40,390 bases of DNA from a virus (IMGVR_UViG_3300034980_000623:1-40390); one strand, 5' to 3'; counted from the first letter of the stretch, positions 2 to 10,488 are shown. Made by a program: numbers and translations. Notes: generated from the sequence alone by a model not told the origin.

Positions 2-166
2 ACATTTGATATGTGGAAGGGCAAACCTGCGTTATACTTGGGTGAAGATATTATCGAGCGATCCGATGGCGTTACCATCACAAACCATGCATTTATGCTG
101 GGAGGTGAGCGACGAATCACGGATCGCTCATTCTTAAAGATGTTAGATCCCTTGACAATCTCTTGA
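2..166 (+). CDS. 3' end of a small hypothetical protein (partial)
   Basis: An open frame enters from the left edge and gives 54 residues ending in LDPLTIS. No start is visible. I do not recognise the protein. Its size, position and beta-rich look would suit another member of the small V-G-D-L-V family that follows, but the diagnostic N-terminus lies outside the window. Its TGA stop lies inside the second TTGAC hexamer of the promoter for the next gene, an arrangement that recurs across this region and supports the frame being real. Confidence 0.5.
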   Translation, partial: TFDMWKGKPALYLGEDIIERSDGVTITNHAFMLGGERRITDRSFLKMLDPLTIS

Positions 167-205
167 CGGGAAAAACTTGCGCTAACCGCTGCGCGGTGTT
201 ATAAT
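152..205 (+). promoter_or_regulatory. Tripartite sigma70-like promoter P1
   Basis: TTGACA (152-157), TTGACG (163-168) and TTGCGC (177-182, used as -35) precede TATAAT (200-205) with a 17 bp spacer. The hexamer steps are 11 and 14 bp. The spacer holds a perfect dyad, ACCGC-TGC-GCGGT (185-197). The -10 ends only 6 bases before the ATG at 212, so the transcript is probably leaderless or nearly so. Confidence 0.7.
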
Positions 206-211
206 ATATAT

Positions 212-409
212 ATGAAAGTTGGTGATTTGGTACACATGCCCGGTTCGCTGGGCAACCCGATTGGCGTTCTCACGCGGATCAAGCCTGATGGCATCCATCG
301 AGGCACGAACCTTAAACGGGTCCGTGTGATGTGGCTCACCGACACACCCGGCGAAGTATCATGGGAACCCGTCAAGTGGCTGGAGGTTATAAGTGATCAA
401 AGCAGGTAG
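212..409 (+). CDS. Small V-G-D-L-V family protein (65 aa), copy a
   Basis: Starts MKVGDLV, the signature of a paralogous set of small proteins spread through this window. The pattern of short beta strands (GVLTRI, VRVMW, WLEVIS) suggests a small SH3/KOW-like barrel. That is inferred from the pattern alone, and the function is unknown. There is no Shine-Dalgarno because the ATG lies 6 bases after the P1 -10 box, so initiation may be leaderless. The C-terminal codons for W-L-E-V contain GGAGG, which serves as the ribosome site of the next gene; that gene starts 17 bases before this stop. The protein ends in SR, a tail imposed by the overlapping downstream start. Confidence 0.75.
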   Translation: MKVGDLVHMPGSLGNPIGVLTRIKPDGIHRGTNLKRVRVMWLTDTPGEVSWEPVKWLEVISDQSR

Positions 410-563
410 TTTAGTTAGATTCAGAGGATCGATTGGTCTTGTTTGGGGTCCGTGCAAAAAGCGATGGGCAAAGCCTGCCGATGTGTGGGTGATGTGGACA
501 GATGAACGCAAGCCCAAGATCGAGTCTGGTCTATTGTTGGAGGTGCTTAGTGCAAGTAGGTGA
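393..563 (+). CDS. Small V-G-D-L-V family protein (56 aa, GTG start), copy b
   Basis: Frame VIKAGSLVRFRG... carries the family N-terminus in divergent form (A-G-S-L-V). The GTG start is chosen because GGAGG at 382-386 sits 6 bases upstream and the family motif begins there. It contains the family's central hydrophobic strand ending in M-W (VWVMW) and ends L-L-E-V-L-S-A-S-R. The L-E-V codons again encode the GGAGG that serves the next gene. It overlaps both neighbours (17 and 14 nt), so translation is probably coupled. Function unknown. Confidence 0.7.
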   Translation: MIKAGSLVRFRGSIGLVWGPCKKRWAKPADVWVMWTDERKPKIESGLLLEVLSASR

Positions 564-711
564 TCTGGTTGTATGTGCGTCCGTGCCGGGTAGACCGGTG
601 GGCTTGATTAAAGAAAAGTATAATGCGTTCTTCATCGTTTTGATTTCTGGCGTCAATAAGTCTGCATGCTTCCAGCCGCAACACTTGGAGTTGATCAATG
701 CGCGTCGGTGA
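550..711 (+). CDS. Small V-G-D-L-V family protein (53 aa, GTG start), copy c
   Basis: Starts VQVGDLV at a GTG 14 bases inside the preceding gene, with GGAGG 6 bases upstream. An upstream in-frame ATG at 502 is possible but lacks a ribosome site and breaks the family alignment. The body (PVGLIKEKY, FFIVLISG) is beta-like, and the end HLELINARR mirrors the L-E-V-I-S-x-R ending of its paralogues. GGAG inside the L-E codons leads to the next gene. Role unknown. Confidence 0.7.
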   Translation: MQVGDLVVCASVPGRPVGLIKEKYNAFFIVLISGVNKSACFQPQHLELINARR

Positions 712-892
712 TTTGGTTAAACATTTCCTGACCGATCAGATCGGCATCGTTGTGGATATTTCGTGTAACCGAGATTCCCGCAACATCGCACCCGTCCAAG
801 TGATGTGGACTACGCAGGGCGAATCGCTTTTCGGTCCCGGCTATAAAGAATGGTGCGGCGAGAAAAGTTTAGAACACTTGACAACTGCTTGA
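698..892 (+). CDS. Small V-G-D-L-V family protein (64 aa), copy d
   Basis: Starts MRVGDLV, overlapping the previous gene by 14 nt, so the upstream TGA falls within this gene's G-D codons (GGTGAT). The family strands IGIVVDI and VQVMW are present. It is the last of four tandem overlapping copies and is the one whose end is not fused to another copy. Its TGA instead lies in the second hexamer of promoter P2. Function unknown. Confidence 0.75.
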   Translation: MRVGDLVKHFLTDQIGIVVDISCNRDSRNIAPVQVMWTTQGESLFGPGYKEWCGEKSLEHLTTA

Positions 893-932
893 CACAACTT
901 TGCTTGACGGCAACCCCTCAAGTGGTTATATT
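878..932 (+). promoter_or_regulatory. Tripartite sigma70-like promoter P2
   Basis: TTGACA 878, TTGACA 889 (+11), TTGACG 904 (+15, -35), then a 17 bp spacer and TATATT 927-932. The spacer has an imperfect dyad AACCCC-TCAA-GTGGTT. The leader holds AGAAAGGAG and the gene starts 27 nt after the -10. Confidence 0.85.
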
Positions 933-958
933 ATAAGTATAGAAAGGAGAAAAAATCT

Positions 959-1843
959 ATGTCATGGTCTGGAACCGTAACCTGCTCACACTGCTACCGT
1001 CAGGGACACAACAAACGCAAGTGCGAACAACTCACAGAGCAAATCAGCGATAAGTACACGGGTAACGTGTCGGCAGCAGCGTCAGAGCGAGAGCGTGGTA
1101 ACGAAAACGATGCCGTGTGGTATGACGAACGCGCCGAGAACTATCGCCAGCAGTACATCAAGCGCACCAAGATCGATCTTGCAACCGGTGAGACGGTTAA
1201 GAACAAGACGGCGAAAGCCGAGCGCATGAAGAACGTGACTTGTGGGTATTGCCAAAACACCGGACACACCCGCCGCGTGTGTGAGGTTGTCAAGCGCGAC
1301 AAGCTGGTATTCATCGAGGAATCTCGCCGTGTTCGCGCTGGCGCGCTTGAAGCTGCCCGCGAGACTGGCATCGGCGTGGGTTCAATGATCCCTATGCGCC
1401 TCAACGGTTACAACGCCGATGGTGAGTGGGGAACACACACAACACTCCGCTACGTTAAAAGTGTAGATTGGTACACGGTTACTGCTGCTCGCGCTGGTCT
1501 GTGGGTTTATCACGTTCATGCGACCAAGCTGGCGTCGGCTAACCAAAGTCGCTGGACTGCTCGCGACAAGATCCTGAAAATGGAGGAAAACTTTAAGGAA
1601 GCACGCGATGTCGCGGAACTCGCCGATGAGCGCGCTCCCTCTGCTTCGCTCATCCCATCGCTCGATCCGCCTGCTGGCTGGCTGGACTGCGAGCCGTCCA
1701 CCATCGACGTTGCCGCTGCTTTCCCTACCAAGGGCGGCAAGTACGAGAAGCAACGGGGTCACGACTACGCATGGCCGAGCGGTGTCACGGCAGAAGTGAT
1801 CCGCGATCTCGGACTTGAAGAACACTGGAAGGGTCGTTTTTAG
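959..1843 (+). CDS. Protein with two CCHC zinc knuckles (294 aa)
   Basis: Two perfect zinc knuckles of the form C-x2-C-x4-H-x4-C are visible: residues C9, C12, H17, C22 and C95, C98, H103, C108. In retroviral nucleocapsids and many RNA-binding proteins such knuckles bind single-stranded nucleic acid, so binding of RNA or ssDNA is the likely role (inference). A charged helical stretch links the knuckles. The remaining 180 residues match nothing I can name. It is the first gene behind P2, with AAGGAG at a good distance from the ATG, and is followed by P3. Reverse-strand frames here are long but look like shadows of its GC-rich codons. Confidence 0.85.
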   Translation: MSWSGTVTCSHCYRQGHNKRKCEQLTEQISDKYTGNVSAAASERERGNENDAVWYDERAENYRQQYIKRTKIDLATGETVKNKTAKAERMKNVTCGYCQNTGHTRRVCEVVKRDKLVFIEESRRVRAGALEAARETGIGVGSMIPMRLNGYNADGEWGTHTTLRYVKSVDWYTVTAARAGLWVYHVHATKLASANQSRWTARDKILKMEENFKEARDVAELADERAPSASLIPSLDPPAGWLDCEPSTIDVAAAFPTKGGKYEKQRGHDYAWPSGVTAEVIRDLGLEEHWKGRF

Positions 1844-1845
1844 AC

Positions 1846-1899
1846 CTGACATTTACCTGACAACTCTCGCCTTGACTTATGGGCGAAAGCGGTTATATT
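1846..1899 (+). promoter_or_regulatory. Tripartite sigma70-like promoter P3
   Basis: CTGACA 1846, CTGACA 1857 (+11), TTGACT 1872 (+15, -35), a 16 bp spacer, TATATT 1894-1899. A CGCC/GGCG dyad brackets the -35. No full gene follows, only a TTG mini-frame and then P4 in tandem. Confidence 0.75.
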
Positions 1900-1925
1900 A
1901 TAAGGGTAAGAAAGAGAAACAAAAG

Positions 1926-1952
1926 TTGTCATCCGATAACAAAAACCTCTGA
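1926..1952 (+). other. Possible 8-codon leader or gene remnant between P3 and P4
   Basis: A TTG 27 nt after the P3 -10, exactly the distance used by real genes behind these promoters, opens an 8-codon frame (MSSDNKNL if initiated). Its TGA falls in the first hexamer of P4, as for the real genes. It may be a leader peptide or what is left after an internal deletion of a former cassette. The ribosome site is weak. Confidence 0.25.
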
Positions 1953-2003
1953 CATTTACCTGACACGAAAATACTTGACATAAAAGCCTTACTGTGTTAT
2001 ATT
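1949..2003 (+). promoter_or_regulatory. Tripartite sigma70-like promoter P4
   Basis: CTGACA 1949, CTGACA 1960 (+11), TTGACA 1975 (+15, -35), a 17 bp spacer, TATATT 1998-2003. A perfect 8 bp inverted repeat, GCCTTACT (1986-1993) and AGTAAGGC (2009-2016), flanks the -10 and looks like an operator. Confidence 0.85.
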
Positions 2004-2053
2004 TATAGAGTAAGGCAAAGAAACAACAACCCTCCCAACTTGGAGAAACCATC

Positions 2054-3145
2054 ATGGCTATCGATTTCGCAACATTTCTCGCGGTCGCCCCTCACGTACT
2101 CAACTCACGGCTTCCCGTGCTTATCCGTGGACGCCATGGCGTCGGCAAGTCCGAAGTGGTCTATCAGATTGCTGAAACTCGCAGCCTCCCGATTGTGGAG
2201 CGCCGAGCATCGCAGATGACTGAGGGTGACTTGCTTGGTTTGCCTGATACGGCAGACACATCTATCAATGGACGCAAGTGTACTACTTGGAACGCCCCTG
2301 ACTGGCTTGTGACAGCCTGTGAGCAACCTGTGTTGCTATTCCTCGATGAAGTGGACCGGGCGACTCAGGAAGTCCGTCAGGGACTCTTTGAGTTGACTGA
2401 TAGCCGCAAGATCAACGGATGGAATCTCCATCCTGAGACTCTGATCGTCGCTGCCGTCAATGGCGGGGAGCATGGCGCACAATACCAAGTCGGTGAAATG
2501 GATCCGGCCGAGCTTGACCGCTGGACCGTGTTTGATGTTGAGCCTTCTACCGAAGATTGGCTGAAGTGGGCAAATGGCCGCATCCCTACCGTTGTGTGGG
2601 ACTTTATTAACCACAACCGGAAGCACTTGGAGCATGAAGGCGATTTTGAGCCTAACAAGGTTTATCCTTCCCGTCGTAGCTGGGCGCGTTACAGCGAAAC
2701 CGCTACCTCTGTTGGAGTGTTCGACGAAGAAGGTGATCGCGATATGCTATTCAACCTTGCGACTGCGTTCCTTGGCTTTGAAGCGGCTGTGTCCCTTCGT
2801 GACTTTGTTGAAAAGTACGAATGGCAGGTAACCATCGAGGATATTCTTGATGCTGGGGAACTTTCTAAGTGTGCGAAGTGGGGTATCAACGATCACGCCG
2901 CGATGATCGAGAAGTTTGAATCTGCCGATGTGTTCAAAGAGGAACTGTCCGATGAACAGATTGTAAACCTTGCGGAATACTTTATCTCGCTTCCATCTGA
3001 GATTGCCATGAAGCTGTGGACCGTTCTCGGGGATTCTGACAACATTAACAATGTTGTAGCCTTGCACAAAGCTGAGACCTCCGAGGGTACTCGCGTGAGT
3101 GATCACCTTGTTGAAATCCTTGGTGGCAACGCTGATGCTTCATAG
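2054..3145 (+). CDS. MoxR-type AAA+ ATPase (363 aa)
   Basis: Walker A is GRHGVGKS (residues 26-33), Walker B LLFLDEVDRA with D98-E99, sensor-1 Asn at about 136 in VAAVN, and an Arg-finger candidate at R156. This is the order expected of MoxR/RavA-like ATPases, which act as chaperones or metal-insertion motors and usually work with a VWA-domain partner. The partner lies about 500 nt downstream (metallopeptidase/VWA gene at 3645), with only two small genes between. The C-terminal third is helical and unassigned. It is driven by the tandem promoters P3/P4. Assignment to the MoxR clade over other AAA families is based on the context and compact core. Confidence 0.88.
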   Translation: MAIDFATFLAVAPHVLNSRLPVLIRGRHGVGKSEVVYQIAETRSLPIVERRASQMTEGDLLGLPDTADTSINGRKCTTWNAPDWLVTACEQPVLLFLDEVDRATQEVRQGLFELTDSRKINGWNLHPETLIVAAVNGGEHGAQYQVGEMDPAELDRWTVFDVEPSTEDWLKWANGRIPTVVWDFINHNRKHLEHEGDFEPNKVYPSRRSWARYSETATSVGVFDEEGDRDMLFNLATAFLGFEAAVSLRDFVEKYEWQVTIEDILDAGELSKCAKWGINDHAAMIEKFESADVFKEELSDEQIVNLAEYFISLPSEIAMKLWTVLGDSDNINNVVALHKAETSEGTRVSDHLVEILGGNADAS

Positions 3146-3380
3146 GCTCCCGCCTATCGACAGAGATCCTGAAATCGGCGATCTCTGTCGGATCGGCGGT
3201 CCGGGCGCTATGCCACGCAAGTTTTTCAGGAAACATGGGCCCGGCTTGATCGTTAAAAAGCATCGAAAGGGGGGCGAGTTACCCTATCACTATGAGGTAA
3301 AATGGCTCAAAAGCGATGAACATATGCGATTTTTCAAAGAGGATATCATAGTATTATCAAATGTGGACCGACGAACTTAA
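3135..3380 (+). CDS. Small V-G-D-L-V-like protein (81 aa), copy e
   Basis: I start it at the ATG that overlaps the ATPase stop by 11 nt. An earlier in-frame start would only extend it into the ATPase gene. The family motif is internal and divergent (P-E-I-G-D-L-C-R), followed by GPGLIVKKH and YEVKWL strands, which parallels the G-I-V-x/V-x-V-x-W pattern of the paralogues. Ribosome site weak; translation probably coupled to the ATPase. It overlaps the next family member by 20 nt. Confidence 0.65.
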   Translation: MLHRLPPIDRDPEIGDLCRIGGPGAMPRKFFRKHGPGLIVKKHRKGGELPYHYEVKWLKSDEHMRFFKEDIIVLSNVDRRT

Positions 3381-3570
3381 AATAGGTGACCTTGTGTGGT
3401 CCCGCCGCGACAACAAGCCCGCTATCATTCTGGACAGCGAGGAAACCGCACGCGCCAAGTACGGCGACATAGCTAACAAAAGGTGGCGATTCAAGCTGCA
3501 CATTGATGGCGATCAGGGATGGCTGGATGAGGTTAAACTTAGAGCCTTGTATATGGGACCGGTTCCTTGA
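3361..3570 (+). CDS. Small V-G-D-L-V family protein (69 aa), copy f
   Basis: MWTDELKIGDLVWSRR carries the motif at residues 7-12, with AIILD and WRFKLHID as the following strands. It overlaps the preceding paralogue, and its TGA lies in the first hexamer of P5. It separates the MoxR ATPase from the VWA/peptidase gene, so members of this family sit between functional partners. Function unknown. Confidence 0.75.
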   Translation: MWTDELKIGDLVWSRRDNKPAIILDSEETARAKYGDIANKRWRFKLHIDGDQGWLDEVKLRALYMGPVP

Positions 3571-3620
3571 CATTTGCTTGACACAACTTTCCTTGACTAT
3601 TCCGCTCAAGCGGTTATATT
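3567..3620 (+). promoter_or_regulatory. Tripartite sigma70-like promoter P5
   Basis: TTGACA 3567, TTGACA 3578 (+11), TTGACT 3593 (+15, -35), a 16 bp spacer, TATATT 3615-3620. The spacer holds a perfect dyad CCGC-TCAA-GCGG (3602-3613). Confidence 0.85.
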
Positions 3621-3644
3621 ATAGGAGTAAGGAAAAGAACAATA

Positions 3645-4871
3645 ATGACTGACGATACCAAAAAGCCCTTCAATCTCAACATGCACACTGCTCGCCTGCT
3701 TATGCGTGAGCCGTTCTTCGCTGCGCTCTCGCGCCGCATCGACAAGATCGCCACAACTGCGATCCCTACTGCTGGTGTCCGTGTTAATCCTGACAGCGCA
3801 CAGTTTGAAATGCTGTATAACCCTGAGTTTTTCGCGCAGCTTAGTGATGATCACAAGCTGGGCATTTTGAAGCATGAGTTTTATCACCTGATTTTTGAGC
3901 ATGTAACCAATCGCAAGCCAGCCGATGGCTTGAAGCGGATTGACAACATCGCTATGGATCTGGCGATCAACTGCCATATCGTTAACGAGTTGCCGAGCGA
4001 GGCAAACCCCGGCCCGACCATCGGCAAAGAGTCAATGAAGGCTTGCATCCCCGGCGAAGGCATGTTTAAGGATCTGCCATCGTTCAAGTCCTATGAGTGG
4101 TATCTTGAAGCCCTTAAAAAGATGCAAGACGAGCAGAAAGAAAAGGGCGATGGTGAAGGCTCCGGGGATCCCTTCGGTGATGCTGATTCGCTCGATGATC
4201 ATGATGGTTTTGGTGAGGTTGATGGGACCACGCAAGAAATCGCCAGCGAGCGCATGAAAGAAACGCTCAAGAAAGCCGCCGAAGAAGCTGAGAAGGCTCG
4301 CAACTGGGGAACCGTATCCTCATCTATGCGTCAGGACATTCTTGATCGCATCCAGACTAAAATCGATTGGCGCAAGGTGCTGCGCTATTTTGTCAAGACA
4401 AGTCAACGCGCAGATAAGCGCAGCACTCCCCGCCGCCTTAACAAGCGTTATCCTCGCGTCCATCCGGGCAAGCGAGTCCGGCGCCAAGCTAAGATCGCGA
4501 TCAGCATCGATCAATCTGGATCGGTCGATGATCAGATGCTTGCCGCGTTCTTCTCCGAGTTGAACAAGTTGGCTGAGATAGCTGAGTTTACCGTGATCCC
4601 CTTTGATACGGTTGTGGCCGAGAGCAAAATATACACATGGAAAAAAGGACAGAGCAAAAAGACCGAGCGTGTGATGCGCGGAGGCACATGCTTCAACGCG
4701 CCAACCAAGTACGTTAATGAACACGGATTTGATGGTCACATCGTTTTGACAGACCTGTGTGCCCCGAAGCCCGTTGCATCCAAGTGCCAACGCATGTGGA
4801 TGACCACCGCGACCTATGCCGCTCGCCCCTACTTTTCAACAAACGAACGTATCATAGCGATCGACGCTTAG
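3645..4871 (+). CDS. VWA-like metallopeptidase, partner of the MoxR ATPase (408 aa)
   Basis: The N-terminal part has a zinc-peptidase motif H77-E-F-Y-H81 within LGILKHEFYHLIFEHV. A charged linker rich in Asp, Gly and Lys follows (about 160-220). The C-terminal part is a VWA-like domain with the metal-ion-dependent adhesion motif D289-Q-S291-G-S293 and a downstream LTD. This matches the DUF2201/VWA-like metallopeptidase architecture that is usually encoded beside MoxR ATPases in bacteria. Target and activity are unknown. It has its own promoter P5 and a separate transcription start from the ATPase, which could let the two subunits be made at different levels. Confidence 0.85.
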   Translation: MTDDTKKPFNLNMHTARLLMREPFFAALSRRIDKIATTAIPTAGVRVNPDSAQFEMLYNPEFFAQLSDDHKLGILKHEFYHLIFEHVTNRKPADGLKRIDNIAMDLAINCHIVNELPSEANPGPTIGKESMKACIPGEGMFKDLPSFKSYEWYLEALKKMQDEQKEKGDGEGSGDPFGDADSLDDHDGFGEVDGTTQEIASERMKETLKKAAEEAEKARNWGTVSSSMRQDILDRIQTKIDWRKVLRYFVKTSQRADKRSTPRRLNKRYPRVHPGKRVRRQAKIAISIDQSGSVDDQMLAAFFSELNKLAEIAEFTVIPFDTVVAESKIYTWKKGQSKKTERVMRGGTCFNAPTKYVNEHGFDGHIVLTDLCAPKPVASKCQRMWMTTATYAARPYFSTNERIIAIDA

Positions 4872-4906
4872 GGTACGTTAAACTTTCCCCGGACATGGAG
4901 TAAATA

Positions 4907-5233
4907 ATGTCAATCACAGGACCGAGACTAAACAACGATGGTGTTATCAAAGCATGGCAAAATGGGCTAAGTGCCCGAAATGGCAGGTATTCTCTGAGTA
5001 GCGTATCATACCCGAATGGTCGCGCTGAGTTATATAGCTATGAGCTAAAGATCGGAGAGCGAACCCCGGCAGGAGTTTACGTTATCGCTGACTTTACCGC
5101 CCCAGCTAAAGGCTTTCGTTCTATGACAACATCTTGTCATGTGAACCTCGCCAAGTGTCAGACAGGCAACCCGGTGATCATGCATCCGTTGGTTTGGGAG
5201 TGCTCACCGATGAGCCAGACTAAGCCTTTTTAA
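4907..5233 (+). CDS. Hypothetical protein (108 aa)
   Basis: ATGGAG precedes the start ATG by about 9 bases. The sequence is Ser/Tyr-rich with alternating strands (RYSLSSVSY, AELYSYELKIG, AGVYVIADF), suggesting an all-beta fold, and has two cysteines near the C-terminus (C-H-V-N-L-A-K-C). I recognise no family. The stop and the next start overlap as TAATG, so it is co-translated with the next gene. It is probably transcribed from P5. Confidence 0.65.
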   Translation: MSITGPRLNNDGVIKAWQNGLSARNGRYSLSSVSYPNGRAELYSYELKIGERTPAGVYVIADFTAPAKGFRSMTTSCHVNLAKCQTGNPVIMHPLVWECSPMSQTKPF

Positions 5234-5436
5234 TGGAAAAGTTTAAGACTGGCGATCTGGTGAAGATCCGCGATGGAACCCATGCGACTGAGATCCCTGA
5301 TCACCGGATCGGCATGATCATCGAGCGCGGCGAGGCTTCAGGAAACTATACCGAGTCTTACACCGTTGTCTTTCTCGGCACCGACGTACATCTAAAGTTT
5401 CACGAAATGTTCTTGGAACACTTTACATCCTCTTGA
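5233..5436 (+). CDS. Small V-G-D-L-V family protein (67 aa), copy g
   Basis: MEKFKTGDLVKIRDG carries the motif at residues 6-10, followed by RIGMIIERG and TVVFLG strands and a closing FLEHFTSS that parallels the L-E-H/L-E-V ends of the family. Coupled to the upstream gene through TAATG. The TGA stop lies in the second hexamer of P6. Function unknown. Confidence 0.78.
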   Translation: MEKFKTGDLVKIRDGTHATEIPDHRIGMIIERGEASGNYTESYTVVFLGTDVHLKFHEMFLEHFTSS

Positions 5437-5476
5437 CATTTTTTGCCTTGACGATCACCGCTTTCGGTGCTATATT
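5422..5476 (+). promoter_or_regulatory. Tripartite sigma70-like promoter P6
   Basis: TTTACA 5422, TTGACA 5433 (+11), TTGACG 5448 (+15, -35), a 17 bp spacer, TATATT 5471-5476. The spacer holds a perfect dyad CACCG-CTTT-CGGTG (5456-5469). From 5446 to 5493 it is identical to P7 except for one base. Confidence 0.87.
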
Positions 5477-5501
5477 ATAGGTATAGAAAGGAGAAAAATC
5501 T

Positions 5502-5696
5502 ATGCTTGCCATTCCACTCATTCGCACCGATGACGATTCTAACCTCACACCTATCGAGCGTACCGCTATCGGTTGCGAGCAGGTGATCACCGCTCTGATG
5601 ATGCAGGCAACGATGGACGATCCACAAGTGAGCGCACAGGAGCGTGAACTTTACACAACTTTGAGCGTTGCCGCCGTCATTCCGGCAGAGGCATAA
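5502..5696 (+). CDS. Hypothetical protein (64 aa)
   Basis: Good ribosome site (AGAAAGGAG) at the end of the P6 leader. The protein is helical and mildly acidic with no motif I can name. It is followed immediately by another short gene (TAA then ATG), so it is the first gene of a run reaching to about 6555. Confidence 0.65.
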   Translation: MLAIPLIRTDDDSNLTPIERTAIGCEQVITALMMQATMDDPQVSAQERELYTTLSVAAVIPAEA

Positions 5697-5867
5697 ATGA
5701 CAGCATTTGAGATCAAACAGTACGACGAAAAGACAAAGCGTTATCATTTTTTAGCGATGATCAGCGCGAGAACCCCCGAGGAAGCCAAACAAAAGTTTAT
5801 CGAACGGGTAAACTATAAGCCTCGCGCCGGGGTTGTACTTTTCGTGAAATCGCCGGGGTGCCTGTAA
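5697..5867 (+). CDS. Hypothetical protein (56 aa)
   Basis: ATG directly abuts the previous stop. The sequence MTAFEIKQYDEKTKRYHFLAM reads as a strand-turn-strand, followed by a helix (TPEEAKQKFIERV) and a final strand (GVVLFVKSPG), a plausible small alpha/beta domain. No family recognised. Its TAA shares a base with the ATG of the next gene (TAATG). Confidence 0.6.
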   Translation: MTAFEIKQYDEKTKRYHFLAMISARTPEEAKQKFIERVNYKPRAGVVLFVKSPGCL

Positions 5868-6184
5868 TGGATCTGCCCATTATCGTTAGCATGAATCCGA
5901 TGCTCTACACTGATCGATCCGGCCAGAAGTGGGCTGTGTCCGGTCAGCATTGGGTGGAAGTGCCCGACACGCTGACGCTGGACGAGGTTGGGAAGTACAT
6001 GATCGTGGAGCATCGCGATACACCCGCTCAATCGACTGACGTTGTATCCTATGAGGTTCAAGGCAGCAAGGGGAACACCTACATCGTGAGCGACAACGGA
6101 GGAACGTGGACCTGCACGTGTCCCGGTTTCGGTTGGCGACGGAAGTGTAAGCATGTGGAGGCTCAGAAAAATGAAAGTCGGTGA
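5867..6184 (+). CDS. SWIM-type zinc finger protein (105 aa)
   Basis: The C-terminal end contains C-T-C-P-G-F-G-W-R-R-K-C-K-H, a C-x-C...C-x-H pattern typical of SWIM zinc fingers, which bind DNA or proteins. SWIM domains are usually appended to larger helicases or transposases, so a 105 aa protein of this kind is unusual. The ATG is preferred over an upstream GTG because it forms TAATG with the previous stop. The last five residues KNESR are written by the overlapping start of the next V-G-D-L-V gene, which begins 14 nt before this stop. Confidence 0.75.
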   Translation: MDLPIIVSMNPMLYTDRSGQKWAVSGQHWVEVPDTLTLDEVGKYMIVEHRDTPAQSTDVVSYEVQGSKGNTYIVSDNGGTWTCTCPGFGWRRKCKHVEAQKNESR

Positions 6185-6356
6185 TCTGGTGAGATTTAGG
6201 GGAGCCAGCAAAAACGCCCTTTTTCAAGTTATGCGTATGTATCGAGGTGGTAAAGGCGGGAACGCTCCACGGGTTGATGTTATGTATCTGTTTAGCGGAT
6301 ACCGGGCCTCCGAGGTGCGCCCATCTGTGTTGGAGGTGATCAGTGAAAGTAGGTGA
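6171..6356 (+). CDS. Small V-G-D-L-V family protein (61 aa), copy h
   Basis: Starts MKVGDLVRFRG, with GGAGG 9 bases upstream inside the coding end of the SWIM gene. Strands FQVMRMY and VDVMYLF follow, then the family ending V-L-E-V-I-S-E-S-R, whose codons include the GGAGG for the next copy. Overlaps both neighbours by 14 nt. Function unknown. Confidence 0.8.
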   Translation: MKVGDLVRFRGASKNALFQVMRMYRGGKGGNAPRVDVMYLFSGYRASEVRPSVLEVISESR

Positions 6357-6555
6357 TCTGGTGACATATGCCTTTCAAGCTGCGCGATGGCGAAAAGGTC
6401 AATCGGTCGATGTGGGTCTGGTTGTCGAAACTGGAAAGTACACAGGCAACGCCGACGTTAAAGTTTTGTGGATGGGTCCGGGAGCCGCAGCACCCTACGC
6501 GATCACACAGAAAATCGACCACCTTAGACTCGTTGACGATTCCTTGACAAAATAA
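6343..6555 (+). CDS. Small V-G-D-L-V family protein (70 aa, GTG start), copy i
   Basis: GTG start with GGAGG 6 bases before it; the frame begins VKVGDLVTYAF. VDVGLVVET and ADVKVLWMG are the family strands. The end runs through the first two hexamers of promoter P7, so its last residues D-D-S-L-T-K are coded by regulatory DNA. Function unknown. Confidence 0.8.
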   Translation: MKVGDLVTYAFQAARWRKGQSVDVGLVVETGKYTGNADVKVLWMGPGAAAPYAITQKIDHLRLVDDSLTK

Positions 6556-6587
6556 CCCTTGACGATCACCGCTTTCGGTGTTATATT
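6533..6587 (+). promoter_or_regulatory. Tripartite sigma70-like promoter P7
   Basis: TTGACG 6533, TTGACA 6544 (+11), TTGACG 6559 (+15, -35), a 17 bp spacer with the dyad CACCG-CTTT-CGGTG (6567-6580), TATATT 6582-6587. Near-duplicate of P6. Confidence 0.87.
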
Positions 6588-6610
6588 ATAGGTATAGAAA
6601 GGAGCAAAAA

Positions 6611-6724
6611 ATGCTTGAAAACCGAAACGGCATGTTTGCCGCACTTATTATCGCTGATCTTACCTGCTGGTCTGGTCTTATTTTCCTCGCCTTCAAGTGG
6701 GCAACCTGCGCGTGTGGGGTATAA
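6611..6724 (+). CDS. Small single-pass membrane protein (37 aa)
   Basis: A short frame placed exactly where P7 would drive a gene (24 nt after the -10, with AAAGGAG). Residues about 8-30 (MFAALIIADLTCWSGLIFLAF) form one hydrophobic segment; the end is Cys-rich (W-A-T-C-A-C-G). Stop and next ATG are adjacent. Likely an inner-membrane peptide of unknown role. Confidence 0.6.
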   Translation: MLENRNGMFAALIIADLTCWSGLIFLAFKWATCACGV

Positions 6725-7126
6725 ATGTCTGACGAAGTTTTGACTATCAAACTGACAGAGCGAGAAATCGATCTGCTTCACCAATGCATTAGCACCAACA
6801 TCGAAACCGTTAAACGGCGGCATCCGATGACCGGATCGGCTGCCGATCTGATTCAAGAACTTGGTGAGCTTTCTGATGATCTTCTGGAGCAAAAAGATCG
6901 CGCTGATGACCCGGTTGATTTTGCTGCGAAGCATGATCGCGAGGGCAAGGTTTTCATGGTCGCAGAAGATGATTTTATTCAGCGAGGCATCGACGCACGC
7001 GAGAAGGCGAAAGCTAACAGTCGAGCGGCAACGCGGAGAAGCCTTAACCTGAAAGACAAAGATCGGAAGCTATCAGCGCAGCAGCAGCATGATGTGTGGG
7101 ATGCCAATGACCCGAGGAACTGGTAA
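6725..7126 (+). CDS. Hypothetical charged helical protein (133 aa)
   Basis: Begins immediately after the upstream stop. The first 60 residues look like a helical domain (LTEREIDLLHQCISTNIETV, IQELGELSDDLLEQ); the C-terminus is basic and hydrophilic, ending D-P-R-N-W. No motif recognised. Co-transcribed with the membrane peptide from P7. Confidence 0.7.
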   Translation: MSDEVLTIKLTEREIDLLHQCISTNIETVKRRHPMTGSAADLIQELGELSDDLLEQKDRADDPVDFAAKHDREGKVFMVAEDDFIQRGIDAREKAKANSRAATRRSLNLKDKDRKLSAQQQHDVWDANDPRNW

Positions 7127-7130
7127 GTAT

Positions 7131-7262
7131 ATGAAACTATTGACTTTATTGGCTATGCTTTCCGCTCCCGGATCTGGCACCGTCTTTGACGAAACAACGA
7201 TCCGCGTGACTGTTCCCATCGTCCTTGACGATTCCTTGACAACTCAAACCGCCCGAGGATAG
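7131..7262 (+). CDS. Possible short exported peptide (43 aa)
   Basis: Starts MKLLTLLAMLSAPGSG, which resembles a short signal peptide, followed by about 27 polar residues. The ribosome site is weak. The last third is coded by DNA that also contains two TTGAC hexamers (P8). It could instead be a chance frame over a leader, so confidence is low. Confidence 0.4.
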   Translation: MKLLTLLAMLSAPGSGTVFDETTIRVTVPIVLDDSLTTQTARG

Positions 7263-7265
7263 AAT
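7225..7265 (+). promoter_or_regulatory. Degenerate copy of the tripartite promoter (P8)
   Basis: TTGACG 7225 and TTGACA 7236 keep the 11 bp step, but the third hexamer expected at 7251 is GCCCGA and no TATATT follows. A weak TTGACA-18 bp-TAGAAT alternative exists, with its -10 overlapping the next ATG. Probably a decayed or alternative site. Confidence 0.35.
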
Positions 7266-7434
7266 GAAAGTCGGCGATCTGGTTCAGATAAACACCTATG
7301 GAGTCCAGCACGGACCAGTGGGGATCATTGTCAGCGCCGCCCTATCGCTACCGAGCGACTGGTGGATCGTGGAATGGGCTGGAACCGGTGAGCGCGAGAC
7401 TATAAGAGAAAATCACATAAGACTCGTCTATTGA
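7264..7434 (+). CDS. Small V-G-D-L-V family protein (56 aa), copy j
   Basis: Starts MKVGDLVQINTYG one base after the previous stop. Strands PVGIIVSA and WWIVEWAG match the family pattern, and IRLVY closes it. The upstream sequence CCCGAGGATAG gives GAGG 7 bases before the ATG. Its TGA lies in the first hexamer of P9. Function unknown. Confidence 0.75.
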   Translation: MKVGDLVQINTYGVQHGPVGIIVSAALSLPSDWWIVEWAGTGERETIRENHIRLVY

Positions 7435-7484
7435 CATTCTCTTGACACGATCTTCCTTGCTTTTCCCTCTCAGTGGGTTATATT
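7431..7484 (+). promoter_or_regulatory. Tripartite sigma70-like promoter P9
   Basis: TTGACA 7431, TTGACA 7442 (+11), TTGCTT 7457 (+15, weak -35), a 16 bp spacer, TATATT 7479-7484. Confidence 0.78.
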
Positions 7485-7509
7485 ATATGTATAGAAAGGA
7501 AAGAACACT

Positions 7510-7638
7510 ATGCGCCTCAAACAGAAAAAACTCAGCCCCATCGCCCTCTACTTAGTTTCGCCTGAGTTTGTTCGTATCATGCTCAAGGTTGATATTATCA
7601 TGCTCGCGTGCCTCGTCCTCTTGTGTCAGACTGTCTGA
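7510..7638 (+). CDS. Small single-pass membrane protein (42 aa)
   Basis: Basic start MRLKQKKLSP, then a hydrophobic segment VDIIMLACLVLLC near the end. Placed 26 nt after the P9 -10 with AAAGGAAAG before it. Its TGA lies in the first hexamer of P10. Role unknown; a single-gene cassette. Confidence 0.6.
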   Translation: MRLKQKKLSPIALYLVSPEFVRIMLKVDIIMLACLVLLCQTV

Positions 7639-7689
7639 CATTCACTTGACAACTTAACCCTTGTCACCACCCTGTTTCGTGCCTATATT
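7635..7689 (+). promoter_or_regulatory. Tripartite sigma70-like promoter P10
   Basis: CTGACA 7635, TTGACA 7646 (+11), TTGTCA 7661 (+15, -35), a 17 bp spacer, TATATT 7684-7689. Confidence 0.82.
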
Positions 7690-7714
7690 ATAGGTGTAGA
7701 AAGGGAAGAACACT

Positions 7715-7897
7715 ATGACTTATGAAGATTTCGCTCGACTCAACACCCAACTCGCGACACTCAACACGCAGGCTGACACAGCTTTGAGTAACGGGGATCG
7801 CGAGGCTTACGATACTCTGGTTGATCAGATGATCGATCTTGAAAATGCCCACCTTGATGCTGGTGGCGAACTTCCTCCACCAGCCTACAAGTGCTGA
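7715..7897 (+). CDS. Hypothetical helical protein (60 aa)
   Basis: Single-gene cassette 26 nt after the P10 -10, with AAAGGGAAG as ribosome site. Almost entirely helical (YEDFARLNTQLATLNTQAD, REAYDTLVDQMIDLENAHLD), suggesting a helical hairpin or coiled coil. The end P-P-P-A-Y-K-C carries one cysteine. The TGA stop lies in the first hexamer of P11. No family recognised. Confidence 0.65.
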   Translation: MTYEDFARLNTQLATLNTQADTALSNGDREAYDTLVDQMIDLENAHLDAGGELPPPAYKC

Positions 7898-7949
7898 CAT
7901 TCACTTGACAACTTAGTTGTTGACAACACCCCACTTTTAATGGTATAAT
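7894..7949 (+). promoter_or_regulatory. Tripartite sigma70-like promoter P11 with operator-like dyad
   Basis: CTGACA 7894, TTGACA 7905 (+11), TTGACA 7920 (+15, -35), an 18 bp spacer, TATAAT 7944-7949. A perfect 8 bp inverted repeat TGGTATAA-TGG-TTATACCA (7941-7959) covers the -10. Confidence 0.85.
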
Positions 7950-7974
7950 GGTTATACCAAGTAAGGAGAAATAC

Positions 7975-8211
7975 ATGGCTTCAAACCTCGACACCGTTAT
8001 ACTTTTCGCAGATGCCTGCGATACCTTCACCACTGAGATCCTTCCGATGATCCAAGAGCAATATGAGCAGGACGGTATTCCTGACATTCCCGCACGTTGC
8101 GAGGCTTGGAACAACTGGACCGACGCGCTCTGCACCGATGAGCAGATCAGCGACTGGCAGTATAGCAACTGGAGTCATGTCACAGACGTTTCACCCGCGT
8201 TGCAACGCTGA
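7975..8211 (+). CDS. Hypothetical acidic protein (78 aa)
   Basis: The ATG is chosen because TAAGGAG sits 6 bases upstream; an earlier frame start would begin inside the -10. Acidic, with C/W-rich helices (RCEAWNNWTDALC, SDWQYSNWSH). I believe similar small proteins occur in other marine phages but cannot name a function. Single-gene cassette; its TGA lies in the first hexamer of P12. Confidence 0.68.
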   Translation: MASNLDTVILFADACDTFTTEILPMIQEQYEQDGIPDIPARCEAWNNWTDALCTDEQISDWQYSNWSHVTDVSPALQR

Positions 8212-8262
8212 CATTCACTTGACAACTTTGTTGTTGACTTTCCCCCATTTTTAGTGTATAAT
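8208..8262 (+). promoter_or_regulatory. Tripartite sigma70-like promoter P12
   Basis: CTGACA 8208, TTGACA 8219 (+11), TTGACT 8234 (+15, -35), a 17 bp spacer, TATAAT 8257-8262. The leader resembles that of P11 (TCAAGTAAGGAGA). Confidence 0.85.
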
Positions 8263-8290
8263 ATAGTATATCAAGTAAGGAGATATATCA

Positions 8291-8692
8291 ATGCCCACAG
8301 CTTTCACCCTCGATCAACTCACCGACTCTAACGACGATTTTTGCTATCGTGCCGATCCGATGATTAACAACATCGAGATTATCTCAAACCGCAAAAAGGT
8401 CTATCGGCCTGTGGCAGCGCCACCAACGCGCAAACAACTCACCGGCTGGACCGTTGAGCAAGTAGGCCCGAAGATGTGGCGCGTGTTCCGCAACTCGACA
8501 ACGATGGGCAAGCAAGCGGTCATTGACTACAATACGCCCGAAGGCGCTCAGTCATTCGCTGACGGTTGCAACGGGGAGCATAAGAACCCTACCAAGATGA
8601 GCGCGGCGAGCCTTCGCAACAAAGCCAAGGAGCATCTGAGCGACGAAGAAAAGGCCGATCTTGCTGCGCTTGCTGCTGGCGAGGGTATCTAA
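8291..8692 (+). CDS. Hypothetical protein (133 aa)
   Basis: Strong ribosome site (TAAGGAG). The middle (WTVEQVGPKMWRVFRN...AVIDYNTPEGAQSFADGCNG) reads as a compact alpha/beta unit; the C-terminus is helical and charged (LSDEEKADLAALAAGEGI). No family assigned. Last cassette of the GC-rich block before a hairpin and a run with no typical promoter. Confidence 0.68.
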   Translation: MPTAFTLDQLTDSNDDFCYRADPMINNIEIISNRKKVYRPVAAPPTRKQLTGWTVEQVGPKMWRVFRNSTTMGKQAVIDYNTPEGAQSFADGCNGEHKNPTKMSAASLRNKAKEHLSDEEKADLAALAAGEGI

Positions 8693-8802
8693 TCAAACCC
8701 GGAACCCGTAAAGCGCAGAGCGCGAGAGGTCAAGAAAATGAAAACCCCTGATCACCGGCTATAAGAGGTTTAGCCACCCTCATAACATAAACTGAGCCGT
8801 CA

Positions 8803-8840
8803 GAGAGCGCGGATAAAAATAAGGCTCTCACCCTTTTATT
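8803..8840 (+). terminator. Hairpin with T-rich tail (terminator or attenuator candidate)
   Basis: GAGAGC (8803-8808) pairs with GCTCTC (8824-8829) across a 15 nt loop and is followed by ACCCTTTTATT. The tail runs straight into the ATG at 8841. The loop is long and the stem only 6 bp, so a weak terminator or a leader structure is equally possible. Confidence 0.35.
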
Positions 8841-9149
8841 ATGAAATACTACATCTCCCAGACCATTGTTGAACTCGTTGATGGTCGCCTGACTGGTCGA
8901 GAAGTAGTGTTGACCCGCGCCGATGCCCGAGTGGACAAGGATGGTGCGAGGTATGGAAATGTTAAGATGTTCATGCACAAGCTGACAGCGTTGGGCATTG
9001 AGAACCTTCACATAAACAAGTACGAAAAGAAGCGTTACAATAAACTTGTGCGAGAACAAAACAAAAGACACAAAAACAGAAAGCTGACTGTCGCCGATCT
9101 TGCCAAAATGACCGAGCAAGCTGAAGAACTTGGCGCTGTGAATGTTTAA
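8841..9149 (+). CDS. Hypothetical basic protein (102 aa)
   Basis: N-terminal strands (KYYISQTIVELVDG, REVVLTRADARVD) lead to a basic helical tail (YEKKRYNKLVREQNKRHKNRK) and a short closing helix. The basic tail would suit nucleic-acid contact (inference). There is no Shine-Dalgarno; the start follows a hairpin with a T-rich tail. The stop overlaps the next ATG by 8 nt. Confidence 0.65.
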   Translation: MKYYISQTIVELVDGRLTGREVVLTRADARVDKDGARYGNVKMFMHKLTALGIENLHINKYEKKRYNKLVREQNKRHKNRKLTVADLAKMTEQAEELGAVNV

Positions 9150-9321
9150 GGTCGGAGAGTTAATAAAAAGAAAAGCTATATCTCCGAGAGGTAGGGCTGT
9201 CTGTGTAGTAGTAGATAAGAATGAGAATAACTATACAGTATATAATAACTCTCTTAAACGTATACGTGTTGTAGCTATTCCAGTTATAAATGGTTTATAT
9301 GATAGAGTATGTGTGTATTAG
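9142..9321 (+). CDS. Small V-G-D-L-V-like protein (59 aa), copy k
   Basis: MFKVGELIKRKA is a divergent form of the family start. Strands RAVCVVVDK and KRIRVVAIPVI follow. Codon use is clearly more AT-rich than in the copies before 9 kb, so this copy sits at the compositional border. Overlaps the upstream gene by 8 nt. Function unknown. Confidence 0.55.
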   Translation: MFKVGELIKRKAISPRGRAVCVVVDKNENNYTVYNNSLKRIRVVAIPVINGLYDRVCVY

Positions 9322-9333
9322 TGTAGTTATTGT

Positions 9334-9570
9334 TTGTTTGTGTGTTTAGGTGTATATGTTTTCATTCGTGTATGCGATTTAATACGCCTGTGGCTCTTGG
9401 TGCGTATGTTTTTATATACGTTTGTGCTTTGGGCCTTAGTACATAGTCACTCTGTCGCCTTTTGTCAAGGCGTGAGTTTAATGCGACAAGCAAACCGAGC
9501 AATATCATATACTTACACTGCCATGTATCACCAACAATATCAACCACTTACGCGCTTTACAATCTTTTGA
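9334..9570 (+). CDS. Doubtful hydrophobic ORF in a 316-base gene-poor stretch
   Basis: Between 9322 and 9636 no confident gene is seen. The first half is GT-rich and low in complexity. One TTG-started frame of 78 codons crosses it, with hydrophobic runs (YVFIRVCDLIRLWLLVRMF) that would make one or two membrane spans. It lacks a ribosome site and a good start. In favour, its TGA lies in the second hexamer of P13, as for the real genes. A 6 bp hairpin CGCCTT-TTGTC-AAGGCG lies at 9456-9472 without a T-tract. Confidence 0.25.
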   Translation: MFVCLGVYVFIRVCDLIRLWLLVRMFLYTFVLWALVHSHSVAFCQGVSLMRQANRAISYTYTAMYHQQYQPLTRFTIF

Positions 9571-9610
9571 CATTTGACCGGTTGACAGCCGCCGCTGGGC
9601 ATGGTATACT
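9556..9610 (+). promoter_or_regulatory. Tripartite sigma70-like promoter P13
   Basis: TTTACA 9556, TTGACA 9567 (+11), TTGACA 9582 (+15, -35), a 17 bp spacer, TATACT 9605-9610. Last copy of this layout in the window. Confidence 0.85.
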
Positions 9611-9809: not shown

Positions 9810-10148
9810 ATGGAATCCATCTACACAATCGACACAGCCAAACTAAACAAGTCCGAGATTGATATGGTACAGTTTATTGAAAGCTGGCTACCAACATTTG
9901 ATCGCTGGTCTACAAAGGAGTTGTCATATAAATGTCAACTGTCTGAGGATGATGGCAACGCTGCCGCTGACATGCTTATCCTGCATGGCTTGATAGAGAA
10001 CGCGCCAGACGATCACGTGATGGGCCGACAGGTATCCGTCACCGCTGACGGTGCACTGTGGATGCGCGAGAACATGGAAGCAATAAACAGTCTTAAACTA
10101 ATGTTAGACACGGATCTATATGATGACACAGAGATTGCCGAGAGTTAA
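9810..10148 (+). CDS. Hypothetical protein, possibly winged-helix-like (112 aa)
   Basis: The start is set at the ATG behind AAAGGAGA rather than an upstream in-frame start. The core (RWSTKELSYKCQLSEDDGNAAADML then LHGLIE... and RQVSVTADGALWMREN) has the helix-helix-helix-hairpin order of a winged helix, so DNA binding is possible but unproven. The next small gene overlaps its end by 26 nt. Confidence 0.65.
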   Translation: MESIYTIDTAKLNKSEIDMVQFIESWLPTFDRWSTKELSYKCQLSEDDGNAAADMLILHGLIENAPDDHVMGRQVSVTADGALWMRENMEAINSLKLMLDTDLYDDTEIAES

Positions 10149-10278
10149 GAGACTACTAAATAAGGTAGGTTCTAAGGTGCTTATCCTCGGCTGCTATTCA
10201 CCTGTCATCCTATACATATATGGTTATGTCATATATAAAGGTATTAAATCACACAGTAAACATATGACAAAGAGTTGA
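10123..10278 (+). CDS. Small single-pass membrane protein (51 aa)
   Basis: Frame MTQRLPRVKRLLNKVGSK continues into a hydrophobic span (VLILGCYSPVILYIYGYVIY) and a basic tail. The many basic residues before the span predict the N-terminus in the cytoplasm. No clear ribosome site; coupling to the overlapping upstream gene is possible. Its TGA lies in the first hexamer of the TTGACA array that follows, the same arrangement as upstream genes. Confidence 0.5.
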   Translation: MTQRLPRVKRLLNKVGSKVLILGCYSPVILYIYGYVIYKGIKSHSKHMTKS

Positions 10279-10327
10279 CAGCATTGTTTGACATTCTTTT
10301 GACATATTGTTTGACAATGATTTGACA
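10275..10327 (+). repeat. Array of five TTGACA hexamers without a -10
   Basis: Exact TTGACA hexamers start at 10275, 10288, 10299, 10311 and 10322, steps 13, 11, 12 and 11 bp, all in one orientation. No TATAAT-like box sits at promoter distance from the last. They are followed by a C-rich run (10336-10357) and about 130 bases with no gene that I can see. Likely a protein-binding array related to the upstream elements of P1-P13. Confidence 0.7.
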
Positions 10328-10488
10328 ACATGGTGGTACCCCCCACCCCCCTACCCCGGGATGTATGTCGCTGTATGCCGGCGTATGGCGATCTGCAAGC
10401 TAAGCCCGTTTTCGATACCGATAAAAAATTATGAGATATGAGTTCCAATTAATAATTGCGCCTAAAAATATTCCCAGATATATACAAT

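Follow-up and report, generated by a model that had tools for sequence, protein, structure and literature searches.

The activator sites of lambda CII consist of direct repeats near the -35 of phage promoters (TTGC-N6-TTGC, with a 10-bp period, the repeats straddling the -35), and the regulon of T4 middle promoters is marked by a short box whose distance from the -10 is constant, namely, a single MotA box that is centered at -30, replaces the -35, and is used with AsiA. T4 early promoters have the order UP/-35/TGn/-10 (PMC2988021), and UP elements lie at -60 to -40 (PMC2613000). The Pho box is made up of two 11-bp direct repeats (PMC3978041), and the PhoP box contains hexamers 5 nt apart (PMC3098285). 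Here, we describe a pair of TTGACA-like hexamers (the twin box) upstream of the -35 in a family of promoters on viral DNA of 40,390 bases (IMGVR_UViG_3300034980_000623:1-40390, a linear IMG/VR record; this whole stretch is called the window, and positions are counted in it). Unlike the CII repeats, both hexamers lie upstream of the -35, and unlike in MotA-dependent promoters, there are two sites and the -35 is kept, both in the window and in the main clade of its relatives.

Twelve promoters on the + strand between 152 and 9610 each carry the box pair upstream of the -35, with the architecture TTGACA-11-TTGACA-15-TTGAC(-35)-16/18-TATA(A/T)T. All were found where the original prediction had placed them, with start-to-start steps of 11 and then 15 bp in every promoter but the first (11 and 14 bp) and with spacers of 16 to 18 bp between -35 and -10, and the sigma70 promoters that it had reported to be free of the hexamers (24668, 27569, and 31960) do lack them. 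P1 (152 to 205) has boxes at 152 and 163, a -35-like TTGCGC at 177, and TATAAT as the -10 at 200 to 205, and P2 (878 to 932) has boxes at 878 and 889, a -35 at 904, and TATATT at 927 to 932. P3 (1846 to 1899; boxes at 1846 and 1857, the latter CTGACA; -35 at 1872; -10 at 1894 to 1899) is followed by P4 (1949 to 2003; boxes at 1949 and 1960, the latter CTGACA; -35 at 1975; -10 at 1998 to 2003), which lies 5' of a MoxR-like ATPase gene, and by P5 (3567 to 3620; boxes at 3567 and 3578; -35 at 3593; -10 at 3615 to 3620), which lies 5' of a VWA/DUF2201 gene. The first box is TTTACA in P6 (5422 to 5476; boxes at 5422 and 5433; -35 at 5448; -10 at 5471 to 5476) and TTGACG in P7 (6533 to 6587; boxes at 6533 and 6544; -35 at 6559; -10 at 6582 to 6587). 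P9 (7431 to 7484; boxes at 7431 and 7442; -10 at 7479 to 7484) has TTGCTT at 7457 as its -35, and P10 (7635 to 7689; boxes at 7635, CTGACA, and 7646; -10 at 7684 to 7689) has TTGTCA at 7661. CTGACA is also the first box of P11 (7894 to 7949; boxes at 7894 and 7905; -35 at 7920; TATAAT at 7944 to 7949 after a spacer of 18) and P12 (8208 to 8262; boxes at 8208 and 8219; -35 at 8234; -10 at 8257 to 8262), and P13 (9556 to 9610) combines boxes at 9556 (TTTACA) and 9567 with a -35 at 9582 and TATACT at 9605 to 9610. The number P8, skipped in the original prediction, can be given to a decayed copy on the + strand at 7225 to 7241, in which the pair TTGACG/TTGACA (step of 11) and the ACTCAAACC spacer persist and the -35 and -10 are lost; relatives have an intact version.

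Relatives were gathered by a search with the VWA/DUF2201 protein, which gave 80 viral loci, and the composite of twin box and promoter is carried by about 50 of them, never on the reverse strand. In a position-matrix scan of the kind suggested by the original prediction, a matrix trained on relatives only (VWA identity of about 80% or less; cutoff score of at least 15) recovered 11 of the 12 window sites, compared with 0.00 sites per window in 100 dinucleotide-preserving shuffles, indicating nonrandom placement; P1 was missed because of its 14-bp step. When 273 core promoters of relatives were aligned on the -35 with no steps assumed, a TTGACA-like hexamer was present at -26/-25 (counted from the -35) in 249 and at -15/-14 in 251, and the coding strand had 227 pairs of perfect TTGACA hexamers with an 11-bp step, versus 4 on the opposite strand. 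The full motif, derived from 258 distinct sites, is C-TTGACA-TTYN-C-TTGACA-ACTTA-nncc-TTGAC-N16/18-TGnTATATTATA, with a ribosome-binding site close downstream; since these sites were picked by likeness to the boxes and the -35, conservation at those bases, including the nearly invariant TTGAC, is partly by construction. The motif exceeds bare hexamers, as a unit of 7+4 bp occurs twice and an extended -10 (TGn, with G in 83% of sites) is present. Each box keeps A as its sixth base, whereas the -35 does not.

The sites are confined to one part of each genome. In two complete relatives, one of 195,459 bp with ends that overlap by 127 bp and one of 203,204 bp with an overlap of 119 bp, they fall within a single stretch of about 20 kb, and the relative G019 (203,859 bp) has 12 sites at 186.8 to 197.9 kb on a single strand; across complete relatives, the site-bearing block spans 20 to 30 kb, occurs once per genome, and has all sites on one strand, and sigma70-like promoters outside it are without boxes. 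Genes of the block code for many small proteins, among them a family that starts with M-K-V-G-D-L-V, as well as for the MoxR-like ATPase and the VWA protein, and by analogy it resembles an early host-takeover region, which would place its expression early in infection. Among 84,980 bacterial and archaeal genomes (GTDB), the composite with its -10 had one match, a contig with genes of this phage group binned in a Neomarinimicrobiota metagenome-assembled genome (MAG), and no perfect box pairs were found elsewhere in that MAG, the pairs being confined to the phage contig; because binning of phage contigs is unreliable, this match is only a weak hint of the host, and a host search in GTDB with the MoxR-like protein yielded no relative. 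In IMG/VR, the composite matched 115 stretches, and all 74 newly fetched and tested loci encode proteins of this group. The composite is thus real, group-wide, and, in the collections searched, exclusive to these phages, and beyond the known systems compared here, no matching phage promoter architecture was found in open-license PubMed Central papers. The closest named phages are remote (terminase identities of 48% to Flavobacterium phage immuto and 44% to Microcystis phage Mel-JY01). The dedicated regulon proposed in the original prediction is therefore strongly supported by one block per genome, one strand, and group exclusivity, whereas its control by a phage-encoded activator is plausible only.

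The boxes and the -35 have evolved independently of each other. In three lineages (L043, L053, and L201), the -35 has changed to TAGACA almost throughout, accompanied by an extended -10 of the TGTGGTATAAT type, and the boxes, with a step of 11 bp, have remained TTGACA or nearly so. By a best-fit count over 51 loci and 406 sites, the step from the second box to the -35 is 15 bp in 353 and 14 bp in 50, and the shifts are lineage-wide (14 bp in 10 of 10 sites in L050 and in 13 of 14 in L230). Two sister lineages (L032 and L055) have a 10-bp step with TGACA at -25/-15, and a third (L052) has it at -15/-5, so that the pair stands at -26/-15, -25/-14, -25/-15, or -15/-5 according to lineage, with offsets about one helical turn apart. 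In a tree of VWA proteins, for which some rows were typed by hand from site lists, 53 of the 54 rows of the -26/-15 type (all but L054) fall inside one fully supported set of 62 rows. Two box pairs in tandem are stacked 5' of a single promoter at L005:10017 and L010:15845. In L139-L140 (G005, 36 to 55 kb), block promoters have other upstream elements (AAAGATCGTAGC, AAAAAAGATAAC, and CTTTCC-11-CTTTCC) and -10 boxes of the form TTACATTACA.

A/T tracts take the place of the boxes in other lineages. Of 321 core promoters in the main clade, 231 have boxes at -26/-15 and 19 have A5/T5 tracts immediately 5' of the -35, compared with no boxes and 28 tracts in the 29 core promoters of L231, which groups by VWA with box-bearing phages, and no boxes and 66 tracts in 122 core promoters of outgroups. 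It is chiefly this substitution that argues for a positive role of the boxes. Because the boxes are kept next to TAGACA -35s, occur in pairs that have no promoter (see below), are shifted between lineages by about a helical turn, and are replaced by A/T tracts elsewhere, they are probably not sites of RNA polymerase; the changed -35s and the promoterless pairs also disfavor the modified sigma contact that the original prediction had offered as a second mechanism.

Its other suggestion, that an activator sits on two direct repeats next to polymerase, has the best support among the mechanisms, and we consider it probable that the boxes are an upstream activating sequence read by a dimeric activator in an UP element's stead. 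The two hexamers would form one such sequence of two head-to-tail 11-bp repeats (CTTGACA plus 4 bp) that share a helix face, span about -62 to -41, and keep a rigid phase relative to the -35. A sequence-specific protein, probably a dimer, would bind the repeats and contact sigma70 RNA polymerase through region 4 or the alpha C-terminal domain (alpha-CTD). It may thus do the job of the A/T-tract UP elements of related phages and thereby boost near-consensus -35/extended -10 promoters that drive small, host-takeover-type genes.

By geometry, the pair resembles a tandem site of the OmpR/PhoB family in its head-to-tail repeats with an 11-bp period of 7+4 bp (tandem repeats at 11 bp in the 227 exact pairs and at 10 bp in sister lineages). 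The opposite strand of the phage repeat reads TGTCA(A), and TGTCA, which we take to be part of the Escherichia coli Pho box consensus, is common to both. The phage pair differs in being reversed relative to the promoter, in having an intact -35 15 bp downstream, and in governing a whole phage block. The likeness to T4 early promoters lies in strong sigma70 promoters that have a consensus -35, an extended -10 (TGn), and an element farther upstream and that cluster at small genes of takeover type in large T4-like phages; the upstream element here, however, is a sequence-specific TTGACA repeat, and an A/T-rich UP element at -60 to -40 does not characterize the main clade.

Several observations weigh against an activator. 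A scan of the window and eight relatives for the OmpR/PhoB winged-helix domain (PF00486) gave no match at an E value of 0.01 or less, none of the candidates tested as the reader of the boxes was established as an activator, and terminator T-runs may inflate the count of A/T tracts in outgroups. Moreover, core promoters that are already near consensus are unusual for activator dependence and would suit repression too. The pair might then be the operator of a phage repressor that prevents expression of the block or ends it at a later time, as in the mycobacteriophage L5-type operators and stoperators, although we regard this as rather unlikely. What we take to be the 13-bp asymmetric L5-type site, GGTGGMTGTCAAG, contains TGTCAAG, the complement of CTTGACA; the flanks of our matrix differ from it (C-TTGACA-WYTW, not C-TTGACA-KCCACC). 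L5-type sites lack symmetry, occur in repeated copies, and point in the direction of transcription (PMC9283540), and the promoter sites described here are one-directional too. However, the former are single, in part intergenic, and bound by a monomeric repressor, whereas the latter are 11-bp repeats in pairs whose place in the promoter is fixed, upstream of the -35 (-61 to -45) and not over the core, with a strict helical phasing that a repressor would not need. UP-like tracts occupy the same position in other lineages, and an integrase or lysogeny cassette was not noticed in non-exhaustive protein-family scans of the conserved proteins of one complete relative.

Somewhat less likely still is that host polymerase itself reads the boxes, through an unusual alpha-CTD or after modification by the phage, with the 11-bp repeats acting as a sequence-specific UP element. 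The boxes do lie in the UP-element zone, with its subsites at -45 to -37 and -58 to -45 (PMC2613000), and T4, with its UP-containing early promoters, modifies alpha (PMC2988021). Against this, pairs are also found where there is no promoter, pointing either way and in arrays with as many as five boxes; TTGACA forms the best-conserved part of the phage sites, in contrast to the A/T-rich sequence of UP elements; and sampled bacterial genomes were without the composite, one phage contig excepted. We consider it very unlikely that a stand-alone sigma70 region 4-like phage protein (about 86 amino acids [aa], with a Cys-rich N terminus and a helix-turn-helix [HTH]) binds the boxes as region 4 binds the -35. 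This protein is among the very few recognized HTH proteins in the conserved set of the relative G001, and its PF04545 match recurs in G002, G004, G005, G008, G009, G010, and most further records, but it is present in the box-free G009 and G010, was not found in G003 with its 13 sites, and has F-A in its recognition helix where sigma70 presumably has R-E. Least credible is that the boxes are duplicated -35 hexamers, neutral or mere landing sites for polymerase; each box is identical to the -35 consensus, but the sixth base is kept in the boxes and not in the -35, L043-type lineages alter the -35 and not the boxes, and the spacing is constant over hundreds of sites.

For the dimeric activator that we favor, a phage-encoded protein is plausible and a host factor is possible. 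Pfam scans of 68 conserved G001 proteins in three batches gave a sigma70 region 4-like match and a winged-HTH match as the sole recognized HTH candidates, and these are probably the same protein. The region 4-like protein (L091:1593-1853), which is nearly group-wide, was rejected as the reader since its distribution does not follow the sites, and a MerR/excisionase-like HTH protein (L238:3753-3974) in the block of the Neomarinimicrobiota-binned contig was set aside because it was found in no other locus. The best distribution match among the candidates is a 90-aa block protein (G001 118337-118609), which is present in the box-bearing G001 to G004, G008, and G019, as well as in G005, L052, L230, and the L032 contig, is absent from G009, G010, and the partial G012, and was not found in the window. 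Its AlphaFold model has a mean pLDDT of 75.5 and a pTM of 0.42, and profile and structure searches returned no relative and no recognized fold.

Boxes also occur without promoters. In the noncoding stretch after the block, the window has a + strand array (10265 to 10327) of five TTGACA boxes (10275, 10288, 10299, 10311, and 10322; steps of 13, 11, 12, and 11) that has no -10 and adjoins, on the same strand, a C-rich element, CCCCCCACCCCCCTACCCCGGGATGTATGTC (10339 to 10369). This element (CCCCCC.CCCCCCTACCCCGGGATGTATGTC), G-rich on the opposite strand, is conserved throughout the phage group and is also kept in phages without boxes; in relatives, promoterless pairs form arrays in either orientation beside it, 3' of the block, and such arrays flank it in box-bearing lineages only. 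The element is a candidate origin or other cis element. We speculate, as a rather improbable extension, that a dimeric activator of an undescribed family, encoded by the phage (the 90-aa block protein, for instance) and either packaged in the virion or synthesized before other proteins, might drive the block via the twin boxes and also act at the C-rich element, which may be a replication origin, so that replication would be linked to takeover transcription. At 9938, a box pair on the - strand (TTGACATTTATATGACA) lies within the open reading frame at 9810 to 10148 and has no -35; it is the sole reverse-strand matrix match in the window.

The twin box is the signature of a dedicated regulon in an uncultivated group of large phages seen in many metagenomes, and it defines a concrete search for its reader protein. 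The same gene block under A/T-tract UP-like elements in some phages and under a sequence-specific twin box in others is a natural experiment, a contrast that allows the exchange of an UP element for an activator site to be tested.

Further features of the window and its relatives were recorded alongside these sites. The family of small proteins starting with M-K-V-G-D-L-V extends from 212 to 9321 in the window and has many copies in the block there and in relatives. GC content steps sharply from about 50% to 40% between 9100 and 10400; a chimera at this point is unsupported and improbable because block GC exceeds that of the rest in several complete relatives. A small basic protein (L093:12063-12323) is the likely source of a ribosomal protein S21 match among the conserved G001 proteins, and a DnaE-type (Pol III alpha) replicative polymerase is encoded at L091:5801-9232, in a phage whose terminase, tail tube, and baseplate proteins are T4-like.

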